This document shows, piece after piece, positions 32,256-46,317 of a stretch of 64,000 nucleotides of DNA. The position numbers and the translations under genes were made by a program. The DNA is from Microcyclospora pomicola. Its lineage: Eukaryota; Ascomycota; Dothideomycetes; Capnodiales. Numbering within the stretch: position 1 is the stretch's first letter; every line of letters starts with the position of its first letter. The stretch lies in contig NHNY01000029.1 of the NCBI GenBank assembly GCA_002786065.1, forward strand, positions 62,001 to 126,000. The letters are read 5' to 3'. The notes beneath the pieces were generated by a model. It did no database searches. It was not told where the DNA came from and saw nothing but the letters and a program-made list of their open reading frames with translations.

Positions 32256-35200
32256 ATGCCGTACTACGAAATGTATTGTGCGGAGTCGGAAGACGAGGAC
32301 GATGTCCAGGACTGCATAACGGTTGCTACACCGAGATACCCATGGAAATCGAAATCCTCGTCTCAAGACCACAGTGAGGAAGAGGAGCAGGAGGAGGAGA
32401 CCAACGAAGATACGCGACACACGAATTCAAACCAGTCGAAATCAAGAGTTACGAGCCCAGAGTCTGACAATGAGCCGAGTGAAGCCAGGGAGGCGTTCAC
32501 AGAAGGTTCACACGAGGATATTGATGGAGGACGCGTGTCCAAGAGGAGAAAACTCAGCCATGTACGACAGAGCATGCCAGTTTTCCCAAACTCAGCGTAC
32601 GCTGGCTGGGAACCGCCCTTCCCGCGTGTGCCCGAGTCTACGGCGTTGGAGCACCTTCTACGAGCTGCTGATGCTGCTGCTGAAGACAAAGAGCTGGCTG
32701 GTGGCCCAAGGGGGCAAGATTACGAAACCTTCGTGCTTGAAGATTTCAGCATTTACCGAGCTGCGTCGATCCCTAACCCCGATGCCCAGAAGCCTTTGAT
32801 CCGTAGCCAGCAGCTGGTGGCTCTGGATCGATTGCTACAGAATGGATACCCCTGCTTGTTATTCGACGGAGTACTGACATGCGGCTCGACCAGACACTAC
32901 GTCCAGGGATTGTCATTCAAAACCCTTGTTGTAGATGGATACGGCACTGATGAAGTCGTGGATGTGCGTGAGAGGCTGTGCATACAGACGCCTTGTGGCG
33001 CGCGAATGAACGTGTGGTATCAGCTTGGGCGACCCTCAGCCCTGTACGAGAGATTTGACAAACCTTTTCGCTGGGTGGCGCAATTCACAAAGTTCTACAT
33101 TGACTATCTACTCAATCATGATGCCGTAACACTAGAGGACTTCCGACATGCTTTCTACGGGGCAATCTCGACGCAATACGCAGGCACCCTTACCTTGAGG
33201 GTGTGGCTTGAACAGTGTTCCAATGGTGCTTCACACACAATCGACTTTCGCACAGCTGTGAATGCCAACATCGAGTTTTTACACAAGGAATGGTGTGGCA
33301 TACACTCTTCTGACTGCTCAGAAAGTGAGCTGTACGAACATCCGATATGGCAAGAGGTCTTGACTTACCGGTTAACTGCTATACCCACGCAGCCTCAGGT
33401 AGAGCAAAAGACGATTGTCACGCCTTTTGCTGCTAATTGCTTCAAGGATATGTACTTTGCCGACCAGATGGAGGCTAGGCAGATCAGCGACAAGTCTGTG
33501 CTTAAGAGAGTGAGGCAGCTCAAGCGCGAGTTGAAACTCACGCCACAAGGCATCTTGCCTAGATCTATGCAGCCGCCGACACCGACACCGACGCCGACGC
33601 CGGACAGTCTTTCAGAAGCAGCAGGCCAAAGGAAGGTATCAGTGTCAGCCCAAGTCCATGTTGAAGTTGGGGACGTCGTGTGCTACTTAGCTGAGGAGCA
33701 CGGTGCTTGGAAGACAAAGTCACAAGCTGTCTGGTACGCCTATGTGCAGAGCGTCAGATCGGAGCAGGTAAATGACGAGCAGCGGACACTGCTCGATGTT
33801 CTTTGGCTGTACCACCCACATGACACAACCATGGGTACCGACACGTACTATCCCTATGCAAACGAGCTGTTTATGTCGGACAATTGCTCATGTGGTAATG
33901 ATGCCCTTCCGATTGAGGACAGCATTGGGACTGTTAAGGTATCATGGTACGACACTCCAGCCACACCAGGTCTCTTTGTGCGACAGAAGTTCGGCACCGT
34001 CCATCACAACGACGAGCAATACTTCGAATCTCTGAAGCCACAACACTTTTCATGTTGCTGCAACAAGAAGCATGGCGTCTTCGAAGAATGCTGCAGCAGG
34101 TATAAGGTCAACGATACAATTCTTACACGAATGTGGGATGCAGAGACCGCAGAGAATTGGCTCGAGCCAGCACAAATTATCGAATTCAACGTTAAGCAGC
34201 GTACGGTACAGCTTCGACAGCTGCGACGAGCACAGAGGGAGGACGCGTGCGCAGTCGCCAACGAGCTACTTATAACAGACTATACGTTTTCTGCTAGTCC
34301 TTCGAATATCATACGAGAATGCCAAGTGCTGTTCCTGGACCAAAAAGACAAGATTCCAGTCCCGTACGATCGTGGAGGGGCTGGGGATCTCTTCATTGTG
34401 CGGCTGAAGGGAACACAAATCATGGACCATTCTTTACCATTGCCAAAGCAAGGGTGGAAGCCTGACTTCGATCAAAATCCCCCGTTGAGGGGATTAGGAA
34501 TATTCTGCGGCGGAGGCAATCTGGATCGTGGACTCGAAGAAGGTGGAGCGGTCGGTTTCACCCATGCTGTTGATCTCGCACCGATTGCGTTGAACAGCTA
34601 TCGAGCGAATCATATCAAGACGGCCAAGACAAGCTTCTTCCTCGGCTCTGTCAATGACAATCTTGATCAGGCCATTGCTGGACACGAGTTTGCGCAACGA
34701 GGCAAGACCAGAATTGCAAGGCCAGGACAGATTGATGTCTTAGCAGCTGGAAGTCCGTGTCCAGGCTTCTCACCAATGCAGCGTAGCAAGATGAGCGAGA
34801 AGTCGAGGAGAAATGCTTCTATGGTCGCGTCAGTCATTTCCTACGTCGACTTGTACTCTCCAAAGTACCTTTTCCTGGAAAACGTTGTAGAGATGACGTT
34901 TCTTGCAGGCCCAAACAAGGATCAGAATGTCTTCGGCCAAGTAATCGCGAGTCTGGTTGCTCTAGGTTACCAGGTACAGCAGCACCTAATGGACGCGTGG
35001 ACTTTCGGCAGCTCTCAGCATCGGTCTCGAATCTTCATCATTGCGACGGCGCCGAATATGACACCTCTCAACACACCAGCTTATACTCATGCACATCCAA
35101 AAGCGCAACAGCTTAGCCGAAATTTAGGCAAAGGCAGCAATGGGAAGGCTTTCGGCATGCGGCGTGAGGACGATGTTCCTTTTCGACATGTGACTGTTGC

Positions 35201-35909
35201 AGACGCTATCGACGATCTCCCTGACATCGGGAACTCAGCACCACAGATATGCCCATCCTCTCCAGACCATCGTGTCCCGATTTTCCCAGCAGCCCATCAC
35301 GTCGATAGGTTCTCAATGATCCCTACTATCCCAGAGGGATCATCATTAGTGAAAGCGGGCCAACGGATTGCGTGGCTATCGGGTGAACCTCTGAGGTACC
35401 TGCAACGGTTGAATCCCACAAGATCACACCAGAGCAGCACAATGCTGTCTCGCGTGATTCCTTCTGGCTTATTTTCTTGCTTGTTGACTGCACTCAGTAT
35501 AGCGGACGCCCGCGGTGGTCGCACACTACATCACACGCAGCATCGTAGCCTGTCCGTATTGGAGCTCAAACGCGCCCAAGGTGTACTTGATCACGAAGTT
35601 ATTCTCGGCAGTACCTCCGAGCAGGTGCAAGTCCTCGGCAATATGGTAGACCGAAAGGTCTCCCTAGCTCTCGGATTGGCTTTGAGGCGAGCGCAAGAAG
35701 TGCCGCCTGTGGTGGAAGAACCGAAAGTTTCACTCACGGTCAGTCGAGCTGTACGGCTGATGAGCCGTCAGCTGGTCGGCCTTGCTACGCCGTCAACACT
35801 GTCAATCGAGGAGGCGGAGGGCTATCCCAGCAGCACAATCGGAAGCAGTCTGTTGTCGTTGTTGAAGGGCGTGCCCAACATGAATTCGAAACTTCGAGTA
35901 TGCAATTGA
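32256..35909 (+). CDS. dim-2: DNA (cytosine-5) methyltransferase, Dim-2 type
   Basis: Single open frame of 1217 residues. The acidic N-terminus (about 1-110) is followed by a DNMT1-RFD-like segment (about 120-310, ending YERFDKPFRWVAQFTKFYID). Two BAH-like modules come next (about 465-570 from VEVGDVVCYLAEEHGAW, and about 600-730 from YKVNDTILTRMWD), then the C5-MTase domain. Motifs in the last part: I, GIFCGGGNLDRGLEEGGA (from about 747); IV, AAGSPCPGFSPMQ with catalytic Cys835; VI, FLENVVEM (Glu875); VIII, SSQHRSRIF (about 919-927); and a C-terminal LGNMVDRKVS block as motif X. This architecture fits Neurospora DIM-2, the enzyme that methylates repeat-derived DNA and is recruited through HP1 and H3K9 methylation. 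No frame disruption is visible. A TPTPTPTP tract near residue 445 is a simple repeat. Its convergent neighbour is RPN6; DNMT5 follows 3.8 kb on. Confidence 0.93.
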   Translation: MPYYEMYCAESEDEDDVQDCITVATPRYPWKSKSSSQDHSEEEEQEEETNEDTRHTNSNQSKSRVTSPESDNEPSEAREAFTEGSHEDIDGGRVSKRRKLSHVRQSMPVFPNSAYAGWEPPFPRVPESTALEHLLRAADAAAEDKELAGGPRGQDYETFVLEDFSIYRAASIPNPDAQKPLIRSQQLVALDRLLQNGYPCLLFDGVLTCGSTRHYVQGLSFKTLVVDGYGTDEVVDVRERLCIQTPCGARMNVWYQLGRPSALYERFDKPFRWVAQFTKFYIDYLLNHDAVTLEDFRHAFYGAISTQYAGTLTLRVWLEQCSNGASHTIDFRTAVNANIEFLHKEWCGIHSSDCSESELYEHPIWQEVLTYRLTAIPTQPQVEQKTIVTPFAANCFKDMYFADQMEARQISDKSVLKRVRQLKRELKLTPQGILPRSMQPPTPTPTPTPDSLSEAAGQRKVSVSAQVHVEVGDVVCYLAEEHGAWKTKSQAVWYAYVQSVRSEQVNDEQRTLLDVLWLYHPHDTTMGTDTYYPYANELFMSDNCSCGNDALPIEDSIGTVKVSWYDTPATPGLFVRQKFGTVHHNDEQYFESLKPQHFSCCCNKKHGVFEECCSRYKVNDTILTRMWDAETAENWLEPAQIIEFNVKQRTVQLRQLRRAQREDACAVANELLITDYTFSASPSNIIRECQVLFLDQKDKIPVPYDRGGAGDLFIVRLKGTQIMDHSLPLPKQGWKPDFDQNPPLRGLGIFCGGGNLDRGLEEGGAVGFTHAVDLAPIALNSYRANHIKTAKTSFFLGSVNDNLDQAIAGHEFAQRGKTRIARPGQIDVLAAGSPCPGFSPMQRSKMSEKSRRNASMVASVISYVDLYSPKYLFLENVVEMTFLAGPNKDQNVFGQVIASLVALGYQVQQHLMDAWTFGSSQHRSRIFIIATAPNMTPLNTPAYTHAHPKAQQLSRNLGKGSNGKAFGMRREDDVPFRHVTVADAIDDLPDIGNSAPQICPSSPDHRVPIFPAAHHVDRFSMIPTIPEGSSLVKAGQRIAWLSGEPLRYLQRLNPTRSHQSSTMLSRVIPSGLFSCLLTALSIADARGGRTLHHTQHRSLSVLELKRAQGVLDHEVILGSTSEQVQVLGNMVDRKVSLALGLALRRAQEVPPVVEEPKVSLTVSRAVRLMSRQLVGLATPSTLSIEEAEGYPSSTIGSSLLSLLKGVPNMNSKLRVCN

Positions 35910-36461
35910 GCGCCAAGTCTCCGCCGCTTCTGCGTGTCTGTGTCTCCCCGTGACATGGGGCCAGACTGTTTTTGCTTCACACAAGACCATAGATCAAGCC
36001 GCGCTTGTACGCCAAAGATCCAACGCTTCAGCCGCGCACCTCACGACCACCGCATGACCGGCAGCATAGCCGAATTAGCTCACTATTGATACGTAAGAAC
36101 CAAAACCATTCTTGCTTGACATTCAGTCTTGATCATCAATCTATCTTCCTTTTTCCAGTGACTCGCAGTGCAGTCGTGATTCGAGCGCTTTGAGGGTGTT
36201 CGTAAAGTGGTCAAGGTCCACGTGTAGATTGTGGGGGATCTGAAGGCTGTGTGCATTGTCTTCTGATCTCTTCTGCAATCCTGGCATCGATGACTTTGTA
36301 GATCAGTTAGCATCCTCACTCTCGGCACACTCAATAGGCACATCCGGTGATGCACGCTTGGTGACCGACAGAACGGCACTAGTATACATCATGCTACGTT
36401 GGGCTCTATGGCGAGTCTAATGCTTCCGAGTCGTTACAGCTATTCCATGCCCCACGCTGCA
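35910..36461. other. Intergenic between convergent genes
   Basis: About 550 bases between the stops of the dim-2-like gene and RPN6. No gene or repeat recognised. Confidence 0.5.
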
Positions 36462-37789
36462 TTATTCCAGCAAGCTCGCCTGGTTTGTATATAGCACATC
36501 CACCACGTTCGACAGCTTGTCGATGGTGTCGAGGGCCGCATCGTAGCCTTTGTCTCTTTGGCCCTCCTCGTAGACAAGCAGTACGCCAGCACCTTGGTCC
36601 AGCACGCCAACAATGACGCGGTCCAGGATCATCTGACCCAGCTTTCGCTCTACCTGCTGCACGTCCAGTCCGACCATCTCCGCAACATGGCTGATCTCTA
36701 CGCATGAGAATGGCTCAATCACCTTGATTAGGTTCTGCTCCAGCATGCTGTCGTACAGACGACGAAGATGCGATGCGATGAAACGATCAGATCCGAGCTC
36801 GTAGCGGTAGTTGTGGAGCGCCTGCTCGTACTCCTCTAGACTTCGGTTGTTGTGGGCGCGAGCGACGGCTTTCATGGCATCGAGATTCTTGCCGGCATAC
36901 TTCAGTGCTTGCTTAGAGGTCATGAGCTGATCGACATCCTCCTTCAGATTGAGCATGATCTTGCACAGAAGCATGTATTGTAGTGCAGAGGTGGCTTTGA
37001 CTGGGTCGTCCTGAGAATGGTAGCCTTCCATAGCTTCAATGAAATACGAGAAAGCAGTGTTGAAGTCGCTGTCTTCGGCATGCAGCTGGCCTGATTGCAT
37101 GTCGAGGCCGGCTTGAAGAAGTGGAGGGCAGTATACGGATGCTGCGCTTGTCCGTGCAGAAGTCAAGGCAGCGCGACCTTTAGGGACATTGCCTAGCGCA
37201 TGATAGACTCTGCTCTCGAGTAACTGGACCTCTACCAGCACTAATTTATCGTCCAATCGCTTGAGCTCTTTCAGCAGGCCATTGATGAGTGTAAGCGCAT
37301 CGTAGTAGGACTGCTTTTGCATATGGAGGCCGACCAATCGCACCTCCAGACCCTGGCGAAGGAACCCTTGCCGTTGCGAGACGGCCCACTCGATACATGA
37401 CTTGGTGACGGAGATCTGAATGTCGAGGGTGTTTGGGATTGAAGTGAAGAGGTCGAGAAGGTGGCGGACTGGGTGATTGTTAGTTGAGTATGGCTCTTGT
37501 CATGCTCCAGTGCGAGTCACCTACCTAGCTTAGCTGTCTTTGCCCTTGCGAAGCTCGTAAGAACATCTCGTGTTTGTTGGATGAGGTTTTCAAGGTCTTG
37601 GGTTCGTTTGTGGTCTCGATATAGCTCGCCCAGTCCCATCAATGCATTCTCGAACTCCCGCACCGCCTTATCGTTGGTACCTGGCGGTTTTGACAAGATG
37701 CTCTGGTAGATAGCTTCCGCCTTCGCTGGTTGATCTTTCGAGAGTTGTTTCGCCTCCTCCAACCGCTTTACATTATCTTCTGCCGCCAT
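36462..37789 (-). CDS. RPN6: 26S proteasome regulatory subunit Rpn6 (PSMD11)
   Basis: Lid subunit of the 19S regulatory particle, predicted 423 residues from exons 37789-37525 and 37468-36462. TPR-like helical repeats fill the N-terminal two thirds, with family blocks LVEVQLLESRVYHALGN and AALTSARTSAASVYCPP. A PCI domain covers about 290-390 (FSCVEISHVAEMVGLDVQQV, then LGQMILDRVIVGVLDQGAG). Length equals the family norm. An in-frame extension upstream of MAAEDNVKRLEEAKQ was ignored because it is not conserved. It is divergent from SOF1 with 295 bases between start codons. Confidence 0.96.
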
Positions 37790-38084
37790 CTTTATGCTGT
37801 TGCAGTTCGTGTGGAGGTATGACGCGGCGTGAGTTCTTGAGTGCGCAGGTAATATGTCTTGCAAATGACAATCGAACAGCAGATGATGTTGCTTCAAGGT
37901 GTGTTCAGGCAAGTGTCTCGTGCGCGTCGTTTGAGCCTCATGTATTACAAGGCAGGTATAGCGGCGGCGGCAGCGGGCGTCATAGTCAACGGATCAGCGG
38001 ATCTAACCTTATATCTCAAGCCTAACAATTAATTTCTAGAGGACTTCCCGTATCAATCGTTGAAGATATGTCGTTGTCGTCGCA
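37790..38084. promoter_or_regulatory. Shared promoter, RPN6 / SOF1
   Basis: The 295-base interval between divergent start codons of two essential growth genes. It must hold both promoters and leaders, including the SOF1 upstream ORF at its right end. Inferred from layout. Confidence 0.5.
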
Positions 38085-38141
38085 ATGGTATGTATTGGGT
38101 CGTGGATCAGCCAGAACAAATACTCATGATTTGTAATTAGA
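38068..38141 (+). promoter_or_regulatory. SOF1 upstream ORF closed by splicing
   Basis: An ATG at 38068 opens six codons (MSLSSQ). Its seventh codon begins with TG at 38086-38087, directly before the donor at 38088. Joining to the A at 38141 makes TGA, which overlaps the main ATG at 38085 as ATGA. In unspliced RNA the same frame runs on through the intron to a TAA near 38133. This is read directly from the sequence given the inferred intron; a role in translation control is inference. Confidence 0.55.
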
Positions 38142-39478
38142 AAATCAAAGCTCTCTCCCGCTCGACCGCCTCTTATCAGGCGCCAGGTAGCGATGTCGCC
38201 CGTCAACCGCGCAATCTGGATCCTGCCCTCCACCCATTTGAGAGGGCAAGAGAGTATACTCGGGCGCTGAACGCCACCAAGATGGAACGCATGTTCGCCG
38301 CCCCCTTCGTCGCACAACTAGGAAGAGGTCACGTCGACGGTGTATACACGCTTGCGAAGGATCCGAAGTCTCTAGAACGCTTCGCGAGTGGGAGTGGAGA
38401 TGGAGTGCTGAAAGTGTGGGATTTGCCAAGTCAGGACGAAGTATGGCATACACAAGCGCACGAGAATCTTGTGAAGGGCATGTGCTGGACACAAGACCAG
38501 AAGCTGCTGTCGTGTGGTACAGACAGAACTGTGAAGCTCTACGACCCCTACAATTCAGAGCCTGGTTCAGCACCACTTGCAACCTGGATGGGCAACAACG
38601 CCTTTACAGGGATCACTCGTCACCGGACAGAACCTGCATTTGCTGCTTCTTCCTCCGTCATATCGATATATGACCTCTCACGACCCTCATCGACACCCAC
38701 TCAGACTCTCGCATGGCCAACTTCAGTCGACACAATCACGAGCGTTGCATTCAACCAGACCGAGACCTCCCTCCTTGCCTCAACAGCCACCGATCGCTCG
38801 ATCGTACTGTATGATTTGCGTACGTCCTCTCCACTTCATCGATCGATCCTGAACCTTTCCTCCAACGCCATAAGCTGGAACCCCATGGAAGCCTTTAACT
38901 TCGCCGTTGCCAACGAAGACCACAATATTTACCTCTTCGATTCACGCAACCTCAAACGAGCGCTTAACATTTTGAAAGATCACGTCTCGGCAGTGATGGA
39001 TGTGGAATTCTCTCCAACCGGCGAAGAGCTTGTCTCCGCGTCATACGATCGCAGTGTTCGTCTGTGGTCCCGTTCTCTTGGGCACAGCCGAGACGTCTAC
39101 CATACGAAGCGCATGCAACGCGTATTCTCCTGCTGCTGGACACCCGACAACCAATATGTGGTCTCAGGCTCGGACGACGGGAATGTGCGGCTGTGGCGAG
39201 CGAACGCAAGCGCTCGATCAGGGATTAAAAGCGCTGCACAGCGGCAGAAACTGGAGTACGATGAGGCATTGAAGAAGCGATACAGTCACATGCCGGAGAT
39301 CAAGAGAATAGCTCGCCACAGGCATGTGCCCAAGCAAGTCAAGAAGGCTGGCGAGATCAAGCGAGAGGAACTCAACAGCTTGAAGCGGAGAGAAGAGAAC
39401 GAGCGCAAACACAGCCGACTAAAGGAGCAGAAGCGTAAGAGTGATAGGGAGAAAATGGTGCTGGCGACGGAAAAGTAG
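38085..39478 (+). CDS. SOF1: Sof1/DCAF13, U3 snoRNP WD40 protein
   Basis: SSU-processome component for 18S pre-rRNA processing in the nucleolus, predicted 446 residues. Exon 1 contributes only the initiator ATG (38085-38087). A 53-base intron with GTATGT donor and TTAG acceptor follows, and exon 2 runs 38141-39478. This start gives MKIKALSRS and then the conserved PRNLDPALHPFERAREYTRA, which any start inside exon 2 would lose. Seven WD40 repeats (GSGDGVLKVWDLPSQDEVW, CGTDRTVKLYDP, SASYDRSVRLW, SGSDDGNVRLWRA) precede the basic Sof1 C-terminal domain (KRYSHMPEIKRIARHRHVPK). Length is as in animal DCAF13. Confidence 0.95.
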
Positions 39479-39708
39479 GGAAACTCATGTTATGACTGTA
39501 CGTCAGGCGTCTTTGATATGCATAGCACGGCGTTGGCAATGGTGGTATTGGTTTCATCCTGGCGGAATATGTATGAAGAATGCCTCCATAGAATTAGCGT
39601 AAGATATCCTAGTTGTACACGCACAAGAACAACTCTTTCCCCTAATTCTGTGCAGACCGGGCATATTTGACAACACACCACTCCAATCCTCCCTTTTTGT
39701 ATCTATCA

Positions 39709-42700
39709 TCACTCATCCCCATGTTCTGCAAAAGCTTTGGAGAACTTGATCAATGAGGAGAAGTCCTCGTACCCACTCACTCTCACTCGGCCTTGCGTCC
39801 GCTCTACAAGCTCGCCCTCGCTTACGCCATCTTCCCCGCGCCCATGGCCACCGACCAGCCACGAGCGCGGTCTCAAGCTGAAGTGCCCGTTCTCGTCACG
39901 GATTAGCTGTGTGCCTTCCACCTTCAGCTGCTCGGGACCAGGACCAGGGACTGGTAAGACAGACACAGGCGCTCCACGCTCATCAAGCGCTTCGGCTCGG
40001 CGTTCGCGCTGCTCCAGGATATCGACGTCAATCGTATTGAGCGCGACAATGCGGTACACATGAATTGGCTTCTTCTGGCCGTGGCGACGCACACGACCAA
40101 TCATCTGAGCCATCGTACTCTCGTACTCGTACTGGTCGTTGCGCAGCAGAGGTCCGAGGACGATGACATGGTTGGCGTTCTGGAGGTTGGAACCGGCGGC
40201 AGTCTGGTCCGAAGCGTTGAGGACGATTACGGTATCTCTGCTACTCTCGCGGAATGCTTTGATCTGAGCGCCAGCGGTGGCCGGGCTCTTTACGACTATG
40301 GCAGGGATGGCACGCGATAGCAATGCTTCCTCGACCTCATCGACCTGGTTCTCATATTGCACGAAAAGGATCGCTTGGTCACCTTTCGCGCGGATCTCCT
40401 CGAGCAAATTCATTGCTGCTTCTAATTTTGCGCCATAGGGTGTCGAGGTCTGTCCGTTGCCGAGCTGGCTCTTCCACAACAGATTCCACTTGTTCACTGT
40501 GCTCGAGCATCCCGAAGCTGGACACTGATGTATGAGGTTGACATGTTTCCAGCATTCCTTGCAGATAACATGACCACATAACGCGGATGCTGCAAGATCT
40601 GTGCCTGCGCCCGCACTGCAATTGGCACCAGTACAGATCTGCGACGGAACACTGTCTAGCATAAGCTCTTGGACTGCTAACAAGTATCGATGTGATCGCT
40701 GTGCACTTCGTAGCCGCTTCACTAGAGCGTTCGCTTGGGTTGTGATATCTTTCTTGCCACCGGCTTCCGTCTTCTTCATGCCGGGCTCTGGCAGCTTGAT
40801 CTTGAGGTCTTTCAAGATCAGGTCAATATCTGAAATGACTTGACGATCGCCAAGGTGAAGCCGCAGATTGCAGGACCACCGCTCGAATGCAGCTCGCTCG
40901 CCTAAATGAGCAGACTTGATCGCTTTGCGCAGATCAGATAGTAGTCCAGACACCTCATCACGACGGATGTCGGCATAATGTTTCAGCCCAGATAGAGCAT
41001 CTACAGTATTGGCATCACGGCCGAAAAATGCAGCCGTCTTGACGAGTGCATCTTCTGCAGTATACGACATGTTTACCATTCTGTGCACCACCTCTTCACG
41101 ATCCGACGCACTCTTCTTCTTGCCCTTCTTGATCCGCATGTCAAGAGAGTTGAGATGTTGAAGAAGCTCGAAGTTCAGGGCGCGGTGATCAGTATCAAGG
41201 TTGACAGGGACGAGATGGTCAGTGTATTGCAATGCTGTACCGTCCATGATGTTCCGGCGAACGAACGTGTCAAGGAACTCTTGGGCCTGTTCGTGAATGC
41301 GTGACTGCAGGGCTTGTGATGGCGTTGATCGCATGAGGTCGAATTGTTCAAAGCTCGTAAGGTCCTTGTCCCGACGTTCGGCATTCTTCCTTTTCATGAT
41401 GCCGCGAGCACTACTTCCCACACGCATGGGTATGTTCAACAGCTCTCCGATCTTTGCCACGTCATAGCAGTCACCAATGCTAGGAGTACCGGACAAACCC
41501 CAACGCTTATCTGCATGCAGTCCGACAACAGCAGCATACTCTCTTGGCTCGTAGTCGTGGAACTCATCTACAATGATCCGGTTGAAGTGGAACATCTCAA
41601 AGAAGGGCGTGTCGATCAGCTTGGTGTCTACACTAGCAGAAGCTCCTGTGGCTGCTGCACTCTTCGTGGCATTCGCCTTGCCATTTGCATTGCCTCGAAG
41701 TCGTCGAGATGGAACCATGGCCTTGAACTCTTCACTCCGAAGGTTCTCCTTGTATTGCTTCTCGACATGCTGGCGAAGCGCTTTGGTGCCGTTTTCTGTC
41801 AAGATCTTGAGGCTTCGAGGGATCTCTGCGCTGGCAAAGTTGAGCCACTGCGACAGAGCTCTGTCCTTGACGACAGCAGGACCAGGAGCTCCGATGAAGT
41901 TCGCGATCTTCTCCACATATTTCCCTCCCGTGTCCAGCACGGATTTGTTGAGCACGATAATCTTGGCCTGCTTGAACTGCTCAATTGTCTTCGTGTTGAG
42001 TGCTGGTAAGGATGTAATATACAAGACTGAGCTTCCAGAAAAGCCTAGCTTGTCTTGGATTTCGTCCACCCATTGCTGAACCAAAGGTGTTGGACAGATG
42101 ATTAGTGTCGCAGCAATGGGAATGAGACCATCACTTTCAGGTCTGCTCTGCATGCTTGCTGATATCGATCTTGGATCTTTCTCGTCGAGCTCCGACTGAA
42201 CCAATGCGAGACTGGTGATGGTCTTGCCAAACCCAGGATGATCCGCACAGATGCCACCGCGAACCTGTATCTGCGATTGCGCACGAAGCTCCACATGCCA
42301 CCCCAATTGTCGAATTCCGGCCTCCTCAGCCTCTTCGACTGTCCAAGAGACTCCAGCTTCTTGGGCTTTCATCCATGCAAGCGCCGTTCGCTGCTTCGGA
42401 AAGAGACTGGTTTGATTGTTGAGAACGACTTGGACATCATCGTGAACCGCGTCTTCCGTGTCCGCAAGCTTGAACTTAGGTAGAACCCGTCCAAGTGAAG
42501 CGTGGCTGTCTGTGTACAATTTCCATGTCAACTTGGCATCTGCGTCTGATGGAAGACGAGCCATTGCACGATGCGCAAGGGTGCCGAAGTTGATTCCGAA
42601 CTTCACGGAGATCTTGTCTGCTCGCACATCAGTATGCAGCACGATCGGCTCCGGTCTAGCTTTCATTTGCCGCTCGTATGCGGCAGCCATCGTCGGGTCT

Positions 42701-45700
42701 TCGTACGGCTTGATGGTGTTGCTATGGCTGAGCATCTTCCATCTCAGCGCGGGCTTGGTTGGTGTGCAGTTGACATAGCCGTGATCGTGCGCAACAAATT
42801 TCAGGGGCTTCCAGCCTTCGTCTGGCAACTGTCGTCGAATAGCCTCGAACATCCAGGTGTAGGTCAACATGAAATGCGAGTCATCGGTTTTGTTAAGAAG
42901 ATTCTCGCCCCTGTCTAGAGCGGTGATATCCGAAGGGTTCATCCAGTCACACTCCATCAGCGAAGTAGCCTCATTGCAAGGTCTCGAATCACTGTCCTCG
43001 TGCGTCGGCACGCGGATATCCAGCCGAGCGTGTCGTGGACGTAGTGTGACACTCAGTGGTATATTGTGACAACTCGTAGTAACCTTGACAGATGCGGCTT
43101 TCCCTACGAGTGACTTCGTATGCGCTTTGTCAAAGGCATCCCATGGCTTCCACTGGGGCTCAAGACGTGCCACAACACGACGTACTTCCTCGTATTCCAT
43201 TTGGTCGATGTTGTACGAAAAAACAAACTCGTCAGCGGTCTCACTGCCGGTCCGGGTTGGGTCGAGGAACAGATAGAGAGATTGATCGGTATCCCGATTC
43301 ACAAGCTTGTATAAACTGTTACACGCCTTTCCGCAATCTGGCAGATGCTCATATACACCACTGATAGGAGCCTCGAACAGCTTTTCCTCGTCGTCCGAGA
43401 AATGAATTTCCAGTCGATCATGCTGCTGATGATTGTGCAGGTCAAGCATACCATTGCGTGCCCACCAGCTTGGACTTTTCTGTTCGGAAGGTGTTATGAT
43501 TGCTTTGCATGTCTGCTCGGTCGACGATCTACATGACCACTTGCCATCAAACAGTGAGGTGCTAGTGCTGATATCAGACACTGCAACAGCTTGGAGCAGA
43601 GCCTTGCGCAGCCATGAGTTGGTGGGTAATGTCGCTGCTGGCAATGCATACAAACGCCACTCTGCGCGGTCCTGTTCGATGACCAGCTCGAGACGCGCTT
43701 TGGGTGCAGTATAAACGATGGTCCACCCATATGTTCTGCGCACGGCTAGGAAGTTGAAGACGGACGAAACGGCATCACGGACCGCACTCAGATATTCAGG
43801 TTTCGACGACGGGAGCTGTAACAAGTCTTTCAGTCCGTCAAACTCCACCACCAGCGGTAATGATGTCTTGAAGTCACTCAAGAATTGACTCGGCAGTAGA
43901 TGTGCCCTGGTCCTGTCGGCAGCTCCATAGTCATGTTTTGGGTTACCACCACAGGCAGTGCAGGTTGTATGCTTGCACTTACGGCATTGCTGAATAGGTC
44001 TTTCCGCAACACCATGCGAGCCTTCGCAGAAGCATCGACGCAAAGACTGACGAGCAGATACGAACAGAGCTTGAGCGTCGAGCTCCTGTGCGTCTTCCAC
44101 AGTCTTCACGCCTACACTGGTCATCTGTCGTTCACAGAGCCGTGTATTAGTGATCGCGACCGGTTCAGCAATACTGTCACACTCAGGTTGGATCACCTCG
44201 AAACCACTAATCAGCGCGGATAAGATGGCAGAACCAACCACGGTCGTCGACATGGCATTTCCAGCCATATCTTGCACTTGCACGCCAGTCTCTGTGGTGA
44301 AAGAGATCTTGCTCAATGGAAGGCCTTGCAAGACAAGAGTCTCTTCTGCCGTCAGAACACGACATGCATCGGACACGAAGCACATGCCGCTGGGTGTGAT
44401 GCAGCCGATGATCCCGAAAGGCGTGGTGTCTTCGTTACGGTAGACATTCTGGGACAAATCGACGAGGCGCGTTTTGTACCGCGCATCGTAAGCGCCATTC
44501 GATGGTAGAGCTTTGCGAAGGTATAAGCAGTCCACAGTATCCTTCACTCGTTCGACCTGCGAGCGGAACCACTGCGAGTTGCCATTTTCCGGTGGGAGCA
44601 TGGTTCCACTTTCCTGCCAATGCGTGAAAGGTCGAGCAATGCCAAGACCCATGGTAAAACGATAGTCCATCTGTGTCAACTCGCAAGCAGTCCAGTCAAC
44701 ATCTCGTGCGGCATCATCTTCGTGAGCTTGTTGACGGATGACGATCTGGTCGCTGGGTAGCAGATACGACGACACAGGACTACTCGCAGGTCGCTTGAAT
44801 TCTTGCATGAGTTCGATCCATCGCTCGCTAACGCCACGCAGCTTGCTTCCACGAGTCTTATCGAAGCACACCATGTAACCTCGTTGTCGCGTTTGAGGCA
44901 AGTAGTAATGCTTCGTATCGACCAAGATCCCGTGACAGTCGTAATCGAGAGCACGATAGTTCTCAAGCATTTGATCCCAATCTGCCGACCCGACATTCTC
45001 GAAAATCACAATCGCAGGCCGAAATCTTTCGCAATATGCTTTGGCTCCGAGCCACGTCTTCCCAGATTCACCACCATCAGCGATGCCTTTTTGCTTGTTA
45101 TTCAGTCTGGAATAGTCGACACATGAGGTACCTGCTATAAGGATGTGGGCGTCTCCCGGAATCTCGAACTTTCCTCCGTAATTCGTGAATGCCATCGGAA
45201 CGTCTTCCTTGACAGCATCAACAAACTCCGTGATGTCGCGGAAAATGACGGGTGGTGCAAAGTTACGATCAATGTACGCCTGCTTGAACGGCTCAATTTC
45301 CGCCGAGAAAATGTGCTGCACTTGCAGATTTGGTGCTTGCGAGTTCAGAGCTTTGAGAGAATCGCGTATCATTTCTAGGGCGAGAAGAGGGCTCTCCGTT
45401 CCAGAGCACATGGTAGCTATACGCAGAGGTCGCCCATCTAGATGTTTCAAGCACTTCTCAAACCCTCGATCCAACGCTTTTTGGGTAAGATCCGAGAAGA
45501 TCTCATCAATCTTGTGCAGCGGAGGGGCGCTTTCATCGAGACCTTTGATGTTCTTCATCGGGTGATTTAGCGATCGTACCATCTGTTTCGCAGAACCAGC
45601 ACCTTTGACGGCGGTCCCATCGACGACCGCGCTTGGTTTCGCTTTTGCGACTGCTCCCTTCCGTGGCTTAGGCTGATCGACGTCGGAGGCAAAGTCGTCC

Positions 45701-46317
45701 GACCCTGTTGCTGAGCTTGCTTCGTCAAACTCGTCGGCATCGAGAAGTGCCTCATCCTCTGATTCGTGATCAGATTGTTCGTTCTGGCTTCCCACCATGA
45801 AATCCTCATCATCGCTGATCGCCCGGCCAGAGGCATGACGCCCTTTTCGTGGCTTCTCGTCCACATCCGTGTCCGAGTCAACGAGCACATCGACATAAGA
45901 GGGCCGCGAGACTCTCCGTGCGGGTCTGCCGGACTGCGCAGTGGACTTGCTTGCTCTTGGTGTGCTAGTCTTCGTCCAGAAATCTATCGCCGTCGGTCTA
46001 GTCTGTTCGACTGAACTTCTGATCACATCGGAAACCAAAATCGCTTCGACCTCATCGTGATTGATTCTTCTTGTTGGAGCCGCGACAGAGATTGGATCTG
46101 GAGACTCCGAACCCGATTCGATGCGTGTCGTTAAGATCTCATCAGCCTTTGGTTTGGGTATTGCCACGAACAACAATTTGCTCTGCTTCAAACCCTTATT
46201 GTGCGTCTGCACAGCGTCCGCGGTCCGCAGTCCCGTCTTCTGCTTCTTCGGCGTCAACTGAGGACCATCGACTTCCTCCGAACCCTGCCTCTTCAACGAA
46301 GCACGTGAGATGGCCAT
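39709..46317 (-). CDS. DNMT5: DNMT5-type DNA methyltransferase/SNF2 ATPase
   Basis: Single open frame of 2202 residues. Residues 1-260 are acidic, Ser/Lys-rich and without a visible chromodomain. The C5-MTase domain (about 295-700) shows motif I LRIATMCSGTESPLLALEM, motif IV LIAGTSCVDYSRLNN with Ser-Cys in place of the usual Pro-Cys (Cys399), motif VI FENVGSADWDQM and motif VIII LPQTRQRGYMV. A Cys-rich segment follows near residue 760 (CFCEGSHG, CRKCKHTTCTACGG). The SNF2 ATPase has Walker A ADHPGFGKT (about 1358) and Walker B IIVDEFHDYEP (about 1585), split by a RING-like zinc site (about 1893-1940, CGHVICKECWKHVN) from the helicase C lobe (MIGRVRRHGQKKPIHVYR). This order defines DNMT5. The Cryptococcus enzyme is an ATP-dependent maintenance methylase acting on hemimethylated CG. 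SOF1 ends 230 bases away, convergently. Confidence 0.95.
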   Translation of the reverse strand: MAISRASLKRQGSEEVDGPQLTPKKQKTGLRTADAVQTHNKGLKQSKLLFVAIPKPKADEILTTRIESGSESPDPISVAAPTRRINHDEVEAILVSDVIRSSVEQTRPTAIDFWTKTSTPRASKSTAQSGRPARRVSRPSYVDVLVDSDTDVDEKPRKGRHASGRAISDDEDFMVGSQNEQSDHESEDEALLDADEFDEASSATGSDDFASDVDQPKPRKGAVAKAKPSAVVDGTAVKGAGSAKQMVRSLNHPMKNIKGLDESAPPLHKIDEIFSDLTQKALDRGFEKCLKHLDGRPLRIATMCSGTESPLLALEMIRDSLKALNSQAPNLQVQHIFSAEIEPFKQAYIDRNFAPPVIFRDITEFVDAVKEDVPMAFTNYGGKFEIPGDAHILIAGTSCVDYSRLNNKQKGIADGGESGKTWLGAKAYCERFRPAIVIFENVGSADWDQMLENYRALDYDCHGILVDTKHYYLPQTRQRGYMVCFDKTRGSKLRGVSERWIELMQEFKRPASSPVSSYLLPSDQIVIRQQAHEDDAARDVDWTACELTQMDYRFTMGLGIARPFTHWQESGTMLPPENGNSQWFRSQVERVKDTVDCLYLRKALPSNGAYDARYKTRLVDLSQNVYRNEDTTPFGIIGCITPSGMCFVSDACRVLTAEETLVLQGLPLSKISFTTETGVQVQDMAGNAMSTTVVGSAILSALISGFEVIQPECDSIAEPVAITNTRLCERQMTSVGVKTVEDAQELDAQALFVSARQSLRRCFCEGSHGVAERPIQQCRKCKHTTCTACGGNPKHDYGAADRTRAHLLPSQFLSDFKTSLPLVVEFDGLKDLLQLPSSKPEYLSAVRDAVSSVFNFLAVRRTYGWTIVYTAPKARLELVIEQDRAEWRLYALPAATLPTNSWLRKALLQAVAVSDISTSTSLFDGKWSCRSSTEQTCKAIITPSEQKSPSWWARNGMLDLHNHQQHDRLEIHFSDDEEKLFEAPISGVYEHLPDCGKACNSLYKLVNRDTDQSLYLFLDPTRTGSETADEFVFSYNIDQMEYEEVRRVVARLEPQWKPWDAFDKAHTKSLVGKAASVKVTTSCHNIPLSVTLRPRHARLDIRVPTHEDSDSRPCNEATSLMECDWMNPSDITALDRGENLLNKTDDSHFMLTYTWMFEAIRRQLPDEGWKPLKFVAHDHGYVNCTPTKPALRWKMLSHSNTIKPYEDPTMAAAYERQMKARPEPIVLHTDVRADKISVKFGINFGTLAHRAMARLPSDADAKLTWKLYTDSHASLGRVLPKFKLADTEDAVHDDVQVVLNNQTSLFPKQRTALAWMKAQEAGVSWTVEEAEEAGIRQLGWHVELRAQSQIQVRGGICADHPGFGKTITSLALVQSELDEKDPRSISASMQSRPESDGLIPIAATLIICPTPLVQQWVDEIQDKLGFSGSSVLYITSLPALNTKTIEQFKQAKIIVLNKSVLDTGGKYVEKIANFIGAPGPAVVKDRALSQWLNFASAEIPRSLKILTENGTKALRQHVEKQYKENLRSEEFKAMVPSRRLRGNANGKANATKSAAATGASASVDTKLIDTPFFEMFHFNRIIVDEFHDYEPREYAAVVGLHADKRWGLSGTPSIGDCYDVAKIGELLNIPMRVGSSARGIMKRKNAERRDKDLTSFEQFDLMRSTPSQALQSRIHEQAQEFLDTFVRRNIMDGTALQYTDHLVPVNLDTDHRALNFELLQHLNSLDMRIKKGKKKSASDREEVVHRMVNMSYTAEDALVKTAAFFGRDANTVDALSGLKHYADIRRDEVSGLLSDLRKAIKSAHLGERAAFERWSCNLRLHLGDRQVISDIDLILKDLKIKLPEPGMKKTEAGGKKDITTQANALVKRLRSAQRSHRYLLAVQELMLDSVPSQICTGANCSAGAGTDLAASALCGHVICKECWKHVNLIHQCPASGCSSTVNKWNLLWKSQLGNGQTSTPYGAKLEAAMNLLEEIRAKGDQAILFVQYENQVDEVEEALLSRAIPAIVVKSPATAGAQIKAFRESSRDTVIVLNASDQTAAGSNLQNANHVIVLGPLLRNDQYEYESTMAQMIGRVRRHGQKKPIHVYRIVALNTIDVDILEQRERRAEALDERGAPVSVLPVPGPGPEQLKVEGTQLIRDENGHFSLRPRSWLVGGHGRGEDGVSEGELVERTQGRVRVSGYEDFSSLIKFSKAFAEHGDE

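Follow-up and report, generated by a model that had tools for sequence, protein, structure and literature searches.

Dim-2-type and DNMT5-type DNA methyltransferase genes lie close together in Microcyclospora pomicola, probably as an accident of descent

The DNA analyzed here (the window) is a 64,000-nucleotide stretch of the genome of the fungus Microcyclospora pomicola, corresponding to positions 62001-126000 of a 331-kb contig (C22) in an assembly of 23.37 Mb and 58 contigs. Genes for a Dim-2-type and a DNMT5-type cytosine methyltransferase are convergent in this window, with 3,799 bases from stop codon to stop codon and with RPN6 and SOF1 in between (Table 1). This arrangement confirms the preliminary description of the locus, made from the sequence alone, in which the two genes faced each other 3.8 kb apart across RPN6 and SOF1. 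The positions, identities, and intactness given there for both methyltransferase genes also held up against their open reading frames (ORFs), their Pfam domains, and their matches to the solved structures 9BAP and 7R76. The ORF containing the last exon of RPN6 matched the Pfam families PCI, RPN6_N, and RPN6_C_helix. SOF1 matched WD40 and Sof1, and its identity to complete (full-length) sof1 proteins from named fungi reached 84 to 85% among the matches listed.

Table 1. Genes of the methyltransferase locus (window coordinates)
Gene	Coordinates	Strand	Remarks
Dim-2-type cytosine methyltransferase	32256..35909	+	Single open frame, 1217 residues; ATG at 32256; catalytic motif GSPCPGFS
RPN6, 26S proteasome lid subunit	36462..37789	-	Last exon inside 36462-37499; start codon inferred by eye at about 37789
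SOF1, rRNA-processing WD40 protein	38068..39478	+	Main exon in 38141-39478; short first exon placed by eye
DNMT5-type methyltransferase	39709..46317	-	Single open frame, 2202 residues; ATG at 46317; C5-methylase, weak RING, SNF2 helicase

The plus-strand methyltransferase matched the Pfam families DNA_methylase (PF00145, 103 bits) and DUF7893 (80.5 bits), and its BAH match of 29.4 bits fell slightly below the cut-off of 30.8. Its best solved relative in a phmmer search was PDB entry 9BAP (458 bits), which is DIM2 (PMC11315935), and the two proteins align in two pieces, one N-terminal and one covering BAH and methylase. DNMT1 chains scored at most 114 bits, which rules out a DNMT1 identity for this gene. 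The catalytic cysteine, kept in all 121 aligned rows, the window's among them, and the BAH1 tryptophan (W581 equivalent), present in 119 of the 121, are features that the window protein has in common with DIM2. The two proteins differ in the RFTS cage, where W261 of DIM2 helps to read H3K9me3 via the RFTS domain (PMC11315935). In the window protein, the Y185 equivalent is tyrosine and the Y273 equivalent is tryptophan, whereas the W261 equivalent (residue 259, mapped by eye on the alignment with 9BAP) is cysteine. This cysteine is not peculiar to the window Dim-2, since it is the commonest letter at that position (55 of 121 aligned rows); tryptophan is found there in the relative represented by a 21,777-bp contig, described below. 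Judged from its sequence, the plus-strand gene is an intact Dim-2 orthologue.

The minus-strand methyltransferase scored above the Pfam cut-offs for DNA_methylase (PF00145, 63.7 bits), SNF2 (PF00176, 62 bits), and Helicase_C (PF00271, 40.8 bits). A RING finger between the SNF2 halves is a feature of DNMT5, and residues 1941-1964 of the window protein gave weak RING matches (Prok-RING_4, E 0.0013; zf-C3HC4_2, E 0.093), both under the Pfam cut-off. The methylase, Walker A, DExH, and helicase VI motifs read GTSCVDYS, GFGKT, VDEFH, and QMIGRVRR, and each of the eight motif patterns tried occurred in at least 69 and at most 119 of the 121 rows listed, counting the window. The best solved relative (phmmer) was 7R76, with 835 bits in two pieces over residues 182-2137; this entry is deposited under the name "DNA repair protein Rad8" and is one that we take to be Cryptococcus neoformans DNMT5. 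The methylase, the long middle region, and the SNF2 helicase of 7R76 align with the window protein, whereas the latter has no chromodomain in Pfam at E values up to 1. By its sequence, the minus-strand gene is a DNMT5 orthologue, likewise intact. The two enzyme classes had been described as structurally unrelated, which is wrong, since the C5-methylase domain PF00145 is common to both.

A six-frame search of the genome with PF00145 yielded three matches, namely, Dim-2, DNMT5, and a gene on contig C14. The last of these consists of two open pieces with a methylase domain and without a BAH domain (Pfam, E up to 1). We took it as RID-like because the BAH domain is also absent from RID/Masc1 proteins (PMC7862722). 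The presence of both Dim-2 and DNMT5 in one fungus is normal; most ascomycete fungi encode both enzymes (PMC8091789). The chance that two of three methylase genes start within 14 kb of each other is about 0.004 genome-wide. Given a shared chromosome of 2.5 to 0.5 Mb, which is the situation in several relatives, the chance rises to about 1 to 6%.

Linkage in other fungi was assessed from protein tables holding the best 120 of 229, 151, and 2759 matches to Dim-2, DNMT5, and SOF1, respectively. For SOF1, only the 7,996 candidates sharing the most words were scored, and many species are missing from that table. Two genes were called as being on the same contig when the longest encoding contig had an equal size in base pairs in both tables. 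Under this rule, Dim-2 and DNMT5 shared a contig in seven cases among the 120 by 120 listed rows, while shifting the sizes by 1 to 50 bases gave 0.1 case per shift. The seven comprise a 21,777-bp metagenome contig and contigs of Zasmidium cellare, Baudoinia panamericana, Polychaeton citri, Neophaeotheca triangularis, Aureobasidium subglaciale, and Cercospora zeae-maydis; for the six named matches, the species names agreed in all six, with one contig per row. Among the rows listed, equal sizes were found for DNMT5 and SOF1 in 10 cases and for all three genes in three (the metagenome contig, Baudoinia, and Neophaeotheca). In Zasmidium, the proteins of the pair are numbered 62071 and 62084; these numbers presumably follow genomic position, and, if so, they suggest that Dim-2 and DNMT5 are close together there as well.

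Fourteen named species had a usable row in both the Dim-2 and the DNMT5 tables, and the pair was on one contig in 6 of them, compared with a random expectation of 0.31 to 0.62 species (genomes of 40 to 20 Mb). Among species in which both contigs measure at least 300 kb, the count was 6 of 9. Left out of the 14 were Cercospora beticola (2,637,194 versus 2,636,389 bp) and Fulvia fulva (3,996,973 versus 4,070,492 bp), whose unequal pairs are possibly the same chromosome in two assemblies; Hortaea werneckii, with many strains; the rows labelled "Quercus suber," for which no contig is given; the further Elasticomyces strains LTR17 and LTR27, with the genes on different contigs; the metagenome rows, including the single match among them (21,777 bp); and Zymoseptoria tritici, which had no Dim-2 row among the best 120. 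The placement in Z. tritici comes from PMC8016269: chromosome 6 carries both dnmt5 (Zt_chr6_00685) and the native dim2 locus, and a RID homologue is on chromosome 5. Z. tritici thus resembles M. pomicola in having both genes on one chromosome and differs in that dim2 is inactivated in many strains. The same-chromosome location is given in the passages seen of that paper without remark on linkage. By the contig matches, the linkage of Dim-2 and DNMT5 is not unique to the window genome.

Tight linkage is common to the window and one relative, that of the 21,777-bp contig; in the six named species it is seen at scaffold scale only. The SOF1 of this relative is 94% identical to the window SOF1 over 89% of its length, its Dim-2 and DNMT5 are 59% and 68% identical to those of the window, and the gap between its Dim-2 and DNMT5 genes is at most about 11.5 kb if they are intronless as in the window. 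In both of the FastTree trees, built from 34 DNMT5 and 24 Dim-2 proteins picked from the listed rows, the window groups in a single clade with a "Quercus suber"-labelled protein and the 21,777-bp contig (local support, 100). In the DNMT5 tree, this clade falls within a group of Teratosphaeria, Piedraia, Hortaea, Baudoinia, and Friedmanniomyces. Because the same clade is present in both trees, tight linkage is most simply older than the split between the window species and the relative. The genes might instead have met by chance in the window and separately in the relative, with no older linkage, and a coincidence of about the genome-wide rarity given above could have come up given that many windows were looked at. 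The single clade in both trees and the excess of same-contig linkage in other species over expectation nevertheless make this explanation unlikely.

A misjoined assembly, or genes drawn from different organisms, could likewise have been suspected in a genome of 58 contigs. Such an artefact is extremely improbable and was rejected because the GC content of the 1-kb bins between 32 and 47 kb of the window never leaves the range of 0.50 to 0.54, because the nearest two rows are the same for both proteins, and because an independent contig, that of 21,777 bp, carries Dim-2, SOF1, and DNMT5. The recurrence of the same two nearest rows in both trees also left no sign of horizontal acquisition of either gene. 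The proteins labelled "Quercus suber" are the closest to the window Dim-2 (65%), DNMT5 (76%), and SOF1 (96 to 97%) among the matches listed. They almost certainly derive from fungi contaminating the cork-oak assembly, and the presence of two distinct "Quercus suber" sof1 entries suggests two contaminating fungi.

When linkage was mapped on the DNMT5 tree, 9 tips were scored as same and 8 as different, requiring at least 5 changes; on the Dim-2 tree the scores were 8 and 8, requiring at least 6. The tips scored as different include Z. brevis and Oleoguttula CCFEE 5521, even though their contigs are <90 kb. These numbers of changes mean that linkage has been broken or gained repeatedly. The gene neighborhoods bear on which gene moved. 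In Oleoguttula mirabilis, DNMT5 is next to SOF1 (LTR36_009311 and LTR36_009312) and Dim-2 is on another contig. In Neophaeotheca, DNMT5 and SOF1 are two gene numbers apart (g0972 and g0974), and Dim-2 (g0858) is 114 gene numbers from DNMT5. The SOF1 row of Aureobasidium has another contig size than the pair and may come from another strain. Since DNMT5-SOF1 is the commoner neighborhood, Dim-2 is more likely the mover and DNMT5-SOF1 the steadier association. This pattern is like that reported across fungi, in which Dnmt5 loci are mostly conserved and Dim2 loci are poorly conserved (PMC12543289): DNMT5-SOF1 matches recur, and Dim-2 is more variable. The difference is that linkage of Dim2 and Dnmt5 is not mentioned in the parts seen of that report.

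Reshuffling of genes within chromosomes, or "mesosynteny," has been described in Dothideomycetes (PMC3510045). We consider it probable that the locus consists of two ordinary, intact methyltransferase genes whose closeness is an accident of descent, an old Dothideomycetes chromosomal linkage having been tightened by rearrangement. In this account, DNMT5 would tend to stay with SOF1, several lineages would have had Dim-2 on the chromosome that carries DNMT5, and a within-chromosome rearrangement would have put Dim-2 two genes from DNMT5 in an ancestor of M. pomicola and at least one relative, presumably with no selection for closeness. Dim-2 presumably adds new methyl groups on repeats marked by H3K9me3 and HP1, and the presumed role of DNMT5 is to copy CG methylation onto replicated DNA. 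The proposed pairing of a de novo enzyme with a maintenance enzyme is supported by the literature on both families.

Several observations weigh against descent alone. The comparison with relatives was divided: the three genes are together on the 21,777-bp contig and the pair is together in the six species noted above, but Dim-2 and DNMT5 are on different contigs in 8 of 14 species, although 5 of these 8 have a contig of <130 kb and so give little information. Recurvomyces, Elasticomyces, and Pseudocercospora fuligena have the genes on separate contigs that are both at least 300 kb, which opposes unbroken linkage in those lineages. The DNMT5-SOF1 neighborhood is not fixed, since SOF1 of Polychaeton is on another contig than the Dim-2/DNMT5 pair, and in Acrodontium DNMT5 and SOF1 are on one contig but apparently 97 steps apart, if the tags step by 100. 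Equal contig size is an indirect mark of linkage, the 21,777-bp contig is known by its content with its gene order and orientation unseen, and the 14 species are related and hence are not independent draws. Finally, tight linkage was kept in the window and the relative despite the drift of their Dim-2 and DNMT5 proteins, which could reflect selection.

Under selection, the pair would be kept close because strains inheriting one gene alone lose or mis-set repeat methylation, and the two genes would be passed on as a unit. The closeness of the genes in at least two diverged members of the clade, their presence on one contig in 6 of 14 species, and the complementary activities reported for the enzymes (PMC8016269) all speak for this explanation. 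Among the species checked elsewhere, however, the pair is loosely linked or linkage is not seen, and Dim2 is the main methyltransferase in Verticillium dahliae (PMC8091789). The layout of the locus also argues against it. Dim-2 and DNMT5 converge across two housekeeping genes and thus have no common promoter, and the other pathway genes are on other contigs. Selection for closeness is accordingly judged quite unlikely. A stronger form, in which Dim-2, RPN6, SOF1, and DNMT5 would make up a selected repeat-methylation supergene, with recombination penalized, the two presumably essential genes guarding against deletion, and linkage pulled tight from an ancestral same-chromosome state, is very unlikely.

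The same evidence speaks against the suggestion in the preliminary description that the locus could be regulated as a unit. Gene orientation rules out a shared promoter or operon-like control. The pathway genes found outside C22 comprise an HP1 gene with chromo and chromo-shadow exons (C33), a KMT1/DIM-5-type gene encoding a Pre-SET/SET protein (C20), the RID-like gene (C14), and a gene for an SRA-domain protein of 486 aa (C57:352352-355759, ORF 478-1938 on the plus strand therein) in which Pfam found no RING. The SRA protein is a candidate hemimethyl-CG reader partner for DNMT5. No clear CDCA7-type activator was found in the genome, the sole zf-4CXXC_R1 match reported being in a JmjC protein. 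Apart from the linkage, we found nothing in favor of the functional-unit reading.

The repeats of the genome were also examined for repeat-induced point mutation (RIP). No 1-kb bin of the window had a composite RIP index of >0. Genome-wide, there were at least 68 reverse-transcriptase matches, of which 62 of 68 contain stops; all counted stops were TAG or TAA, and none was TGA. Composition was measured at 20 of the 68 matches. Copies were also compared within families, with the highest-GC copy of each as the reference and the direction of mutation assumed. In two families (11 comparisons), C-to-T changes affected 23 to 25% of CpA sites, 2 to 4% of CpG sites, and about 1% of CpC/CpT sites. Changes in the opposite direction were many (243 and 439 in these two families), which is expected if the reference copy was itself mutated. 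In the third family, L010, with 2 comparisons at about 76% identity, the pattern was blurred, with rates of 30% at CpA, 23% at CpG, 15% at CpT, and 12% at CpC. CpA-directed RIP scars are present in the majority of the repeat copies examined, and a RIP-type defence has therefore acted in this genome. RIP on repeats in Neurospora requires Rid1 (PMC12543289). The scars show that a repeat-defence pathway worked; they do not show action of Dim-2 or DNMT5.

Repeat copies differed in CpG content, for which the mean observed/expected ratio was 0.96 in 164 background 1-kb bins. One family (L011, L012, L015, and L017) had ratios of 0.56 to 0.58 in addition to RIP, and the other 12 degraded copies measured had ratios of 1.0 to 1.2. 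A young Ty3/Gypsy element, whose ORF of 1358 aa is intact, is present at the ends of contigs C30, C36, C38, and C50 (L028-L031), where 6,856 bases are identical at the four contig ends (about 3145-10000 in L028). One flank is found at two of the contig ends and another flank at the other two, so that there may be as few as two copies. The 4,077-bp ORF contains 4 CpG (observed/expected, 0.02), compared with an average of 232 in 200 random synonymous codings, and 0 of its 76 arginine codons are CGN. An older Gypsy copy (L048, C15:145828-149902) differs from the young element at 579 positions, 565 of which are C-to-T or G-to-A. The 550 changes at CpA affect 71% of CpA sites, which makes this copy a nearly pure RIP scar and the cleanest case seen. 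Since L048 too has only 2 CpG, the CpG-poor state is most simply older than the RIP scarring. Escape from CG methylation and arrival from a CG-methylating host are two possibilities for the lack of CpG. Viral contigs searched with a 160-aa reverse-transcriptase fragment of the element gave 10 pattern matches and no relative. Literature searches for CpG-depleted fungal retroelements turned up papers that, judged by their abstracts, do not treat such an element, and one that describes CpG-to-TpG hypermutation in Rhizoctonia (PMC4014442).

The linkage of Dim-2 and DNMT5 had been put forward as undescribed, and we found no statement of it in the abstracts and passages seen of the openly available full-text literature, among the matches listed. 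Those passages include parts of the reviews PMC13297926 (2026) and PMC7862722 (2021). If the linkage is inherited chromosome history only, this finding corrects a tempting story and replaces it with a testable account, in which DNMT5-SOF1 is the steadier neighborhood and Dim-2 is the mover. Dim2 has been lost many times in ascomycetes (PMC12543289), and for that reason a clade with a nearly inseparable pair is suited to asking whether linkage lowers the loss of single genes. With its very clean RIP scars at CpA and, next to them, a retroelement nearly free of CpG, this genome is useful for separating the effects of RIP from those of CG methylation.

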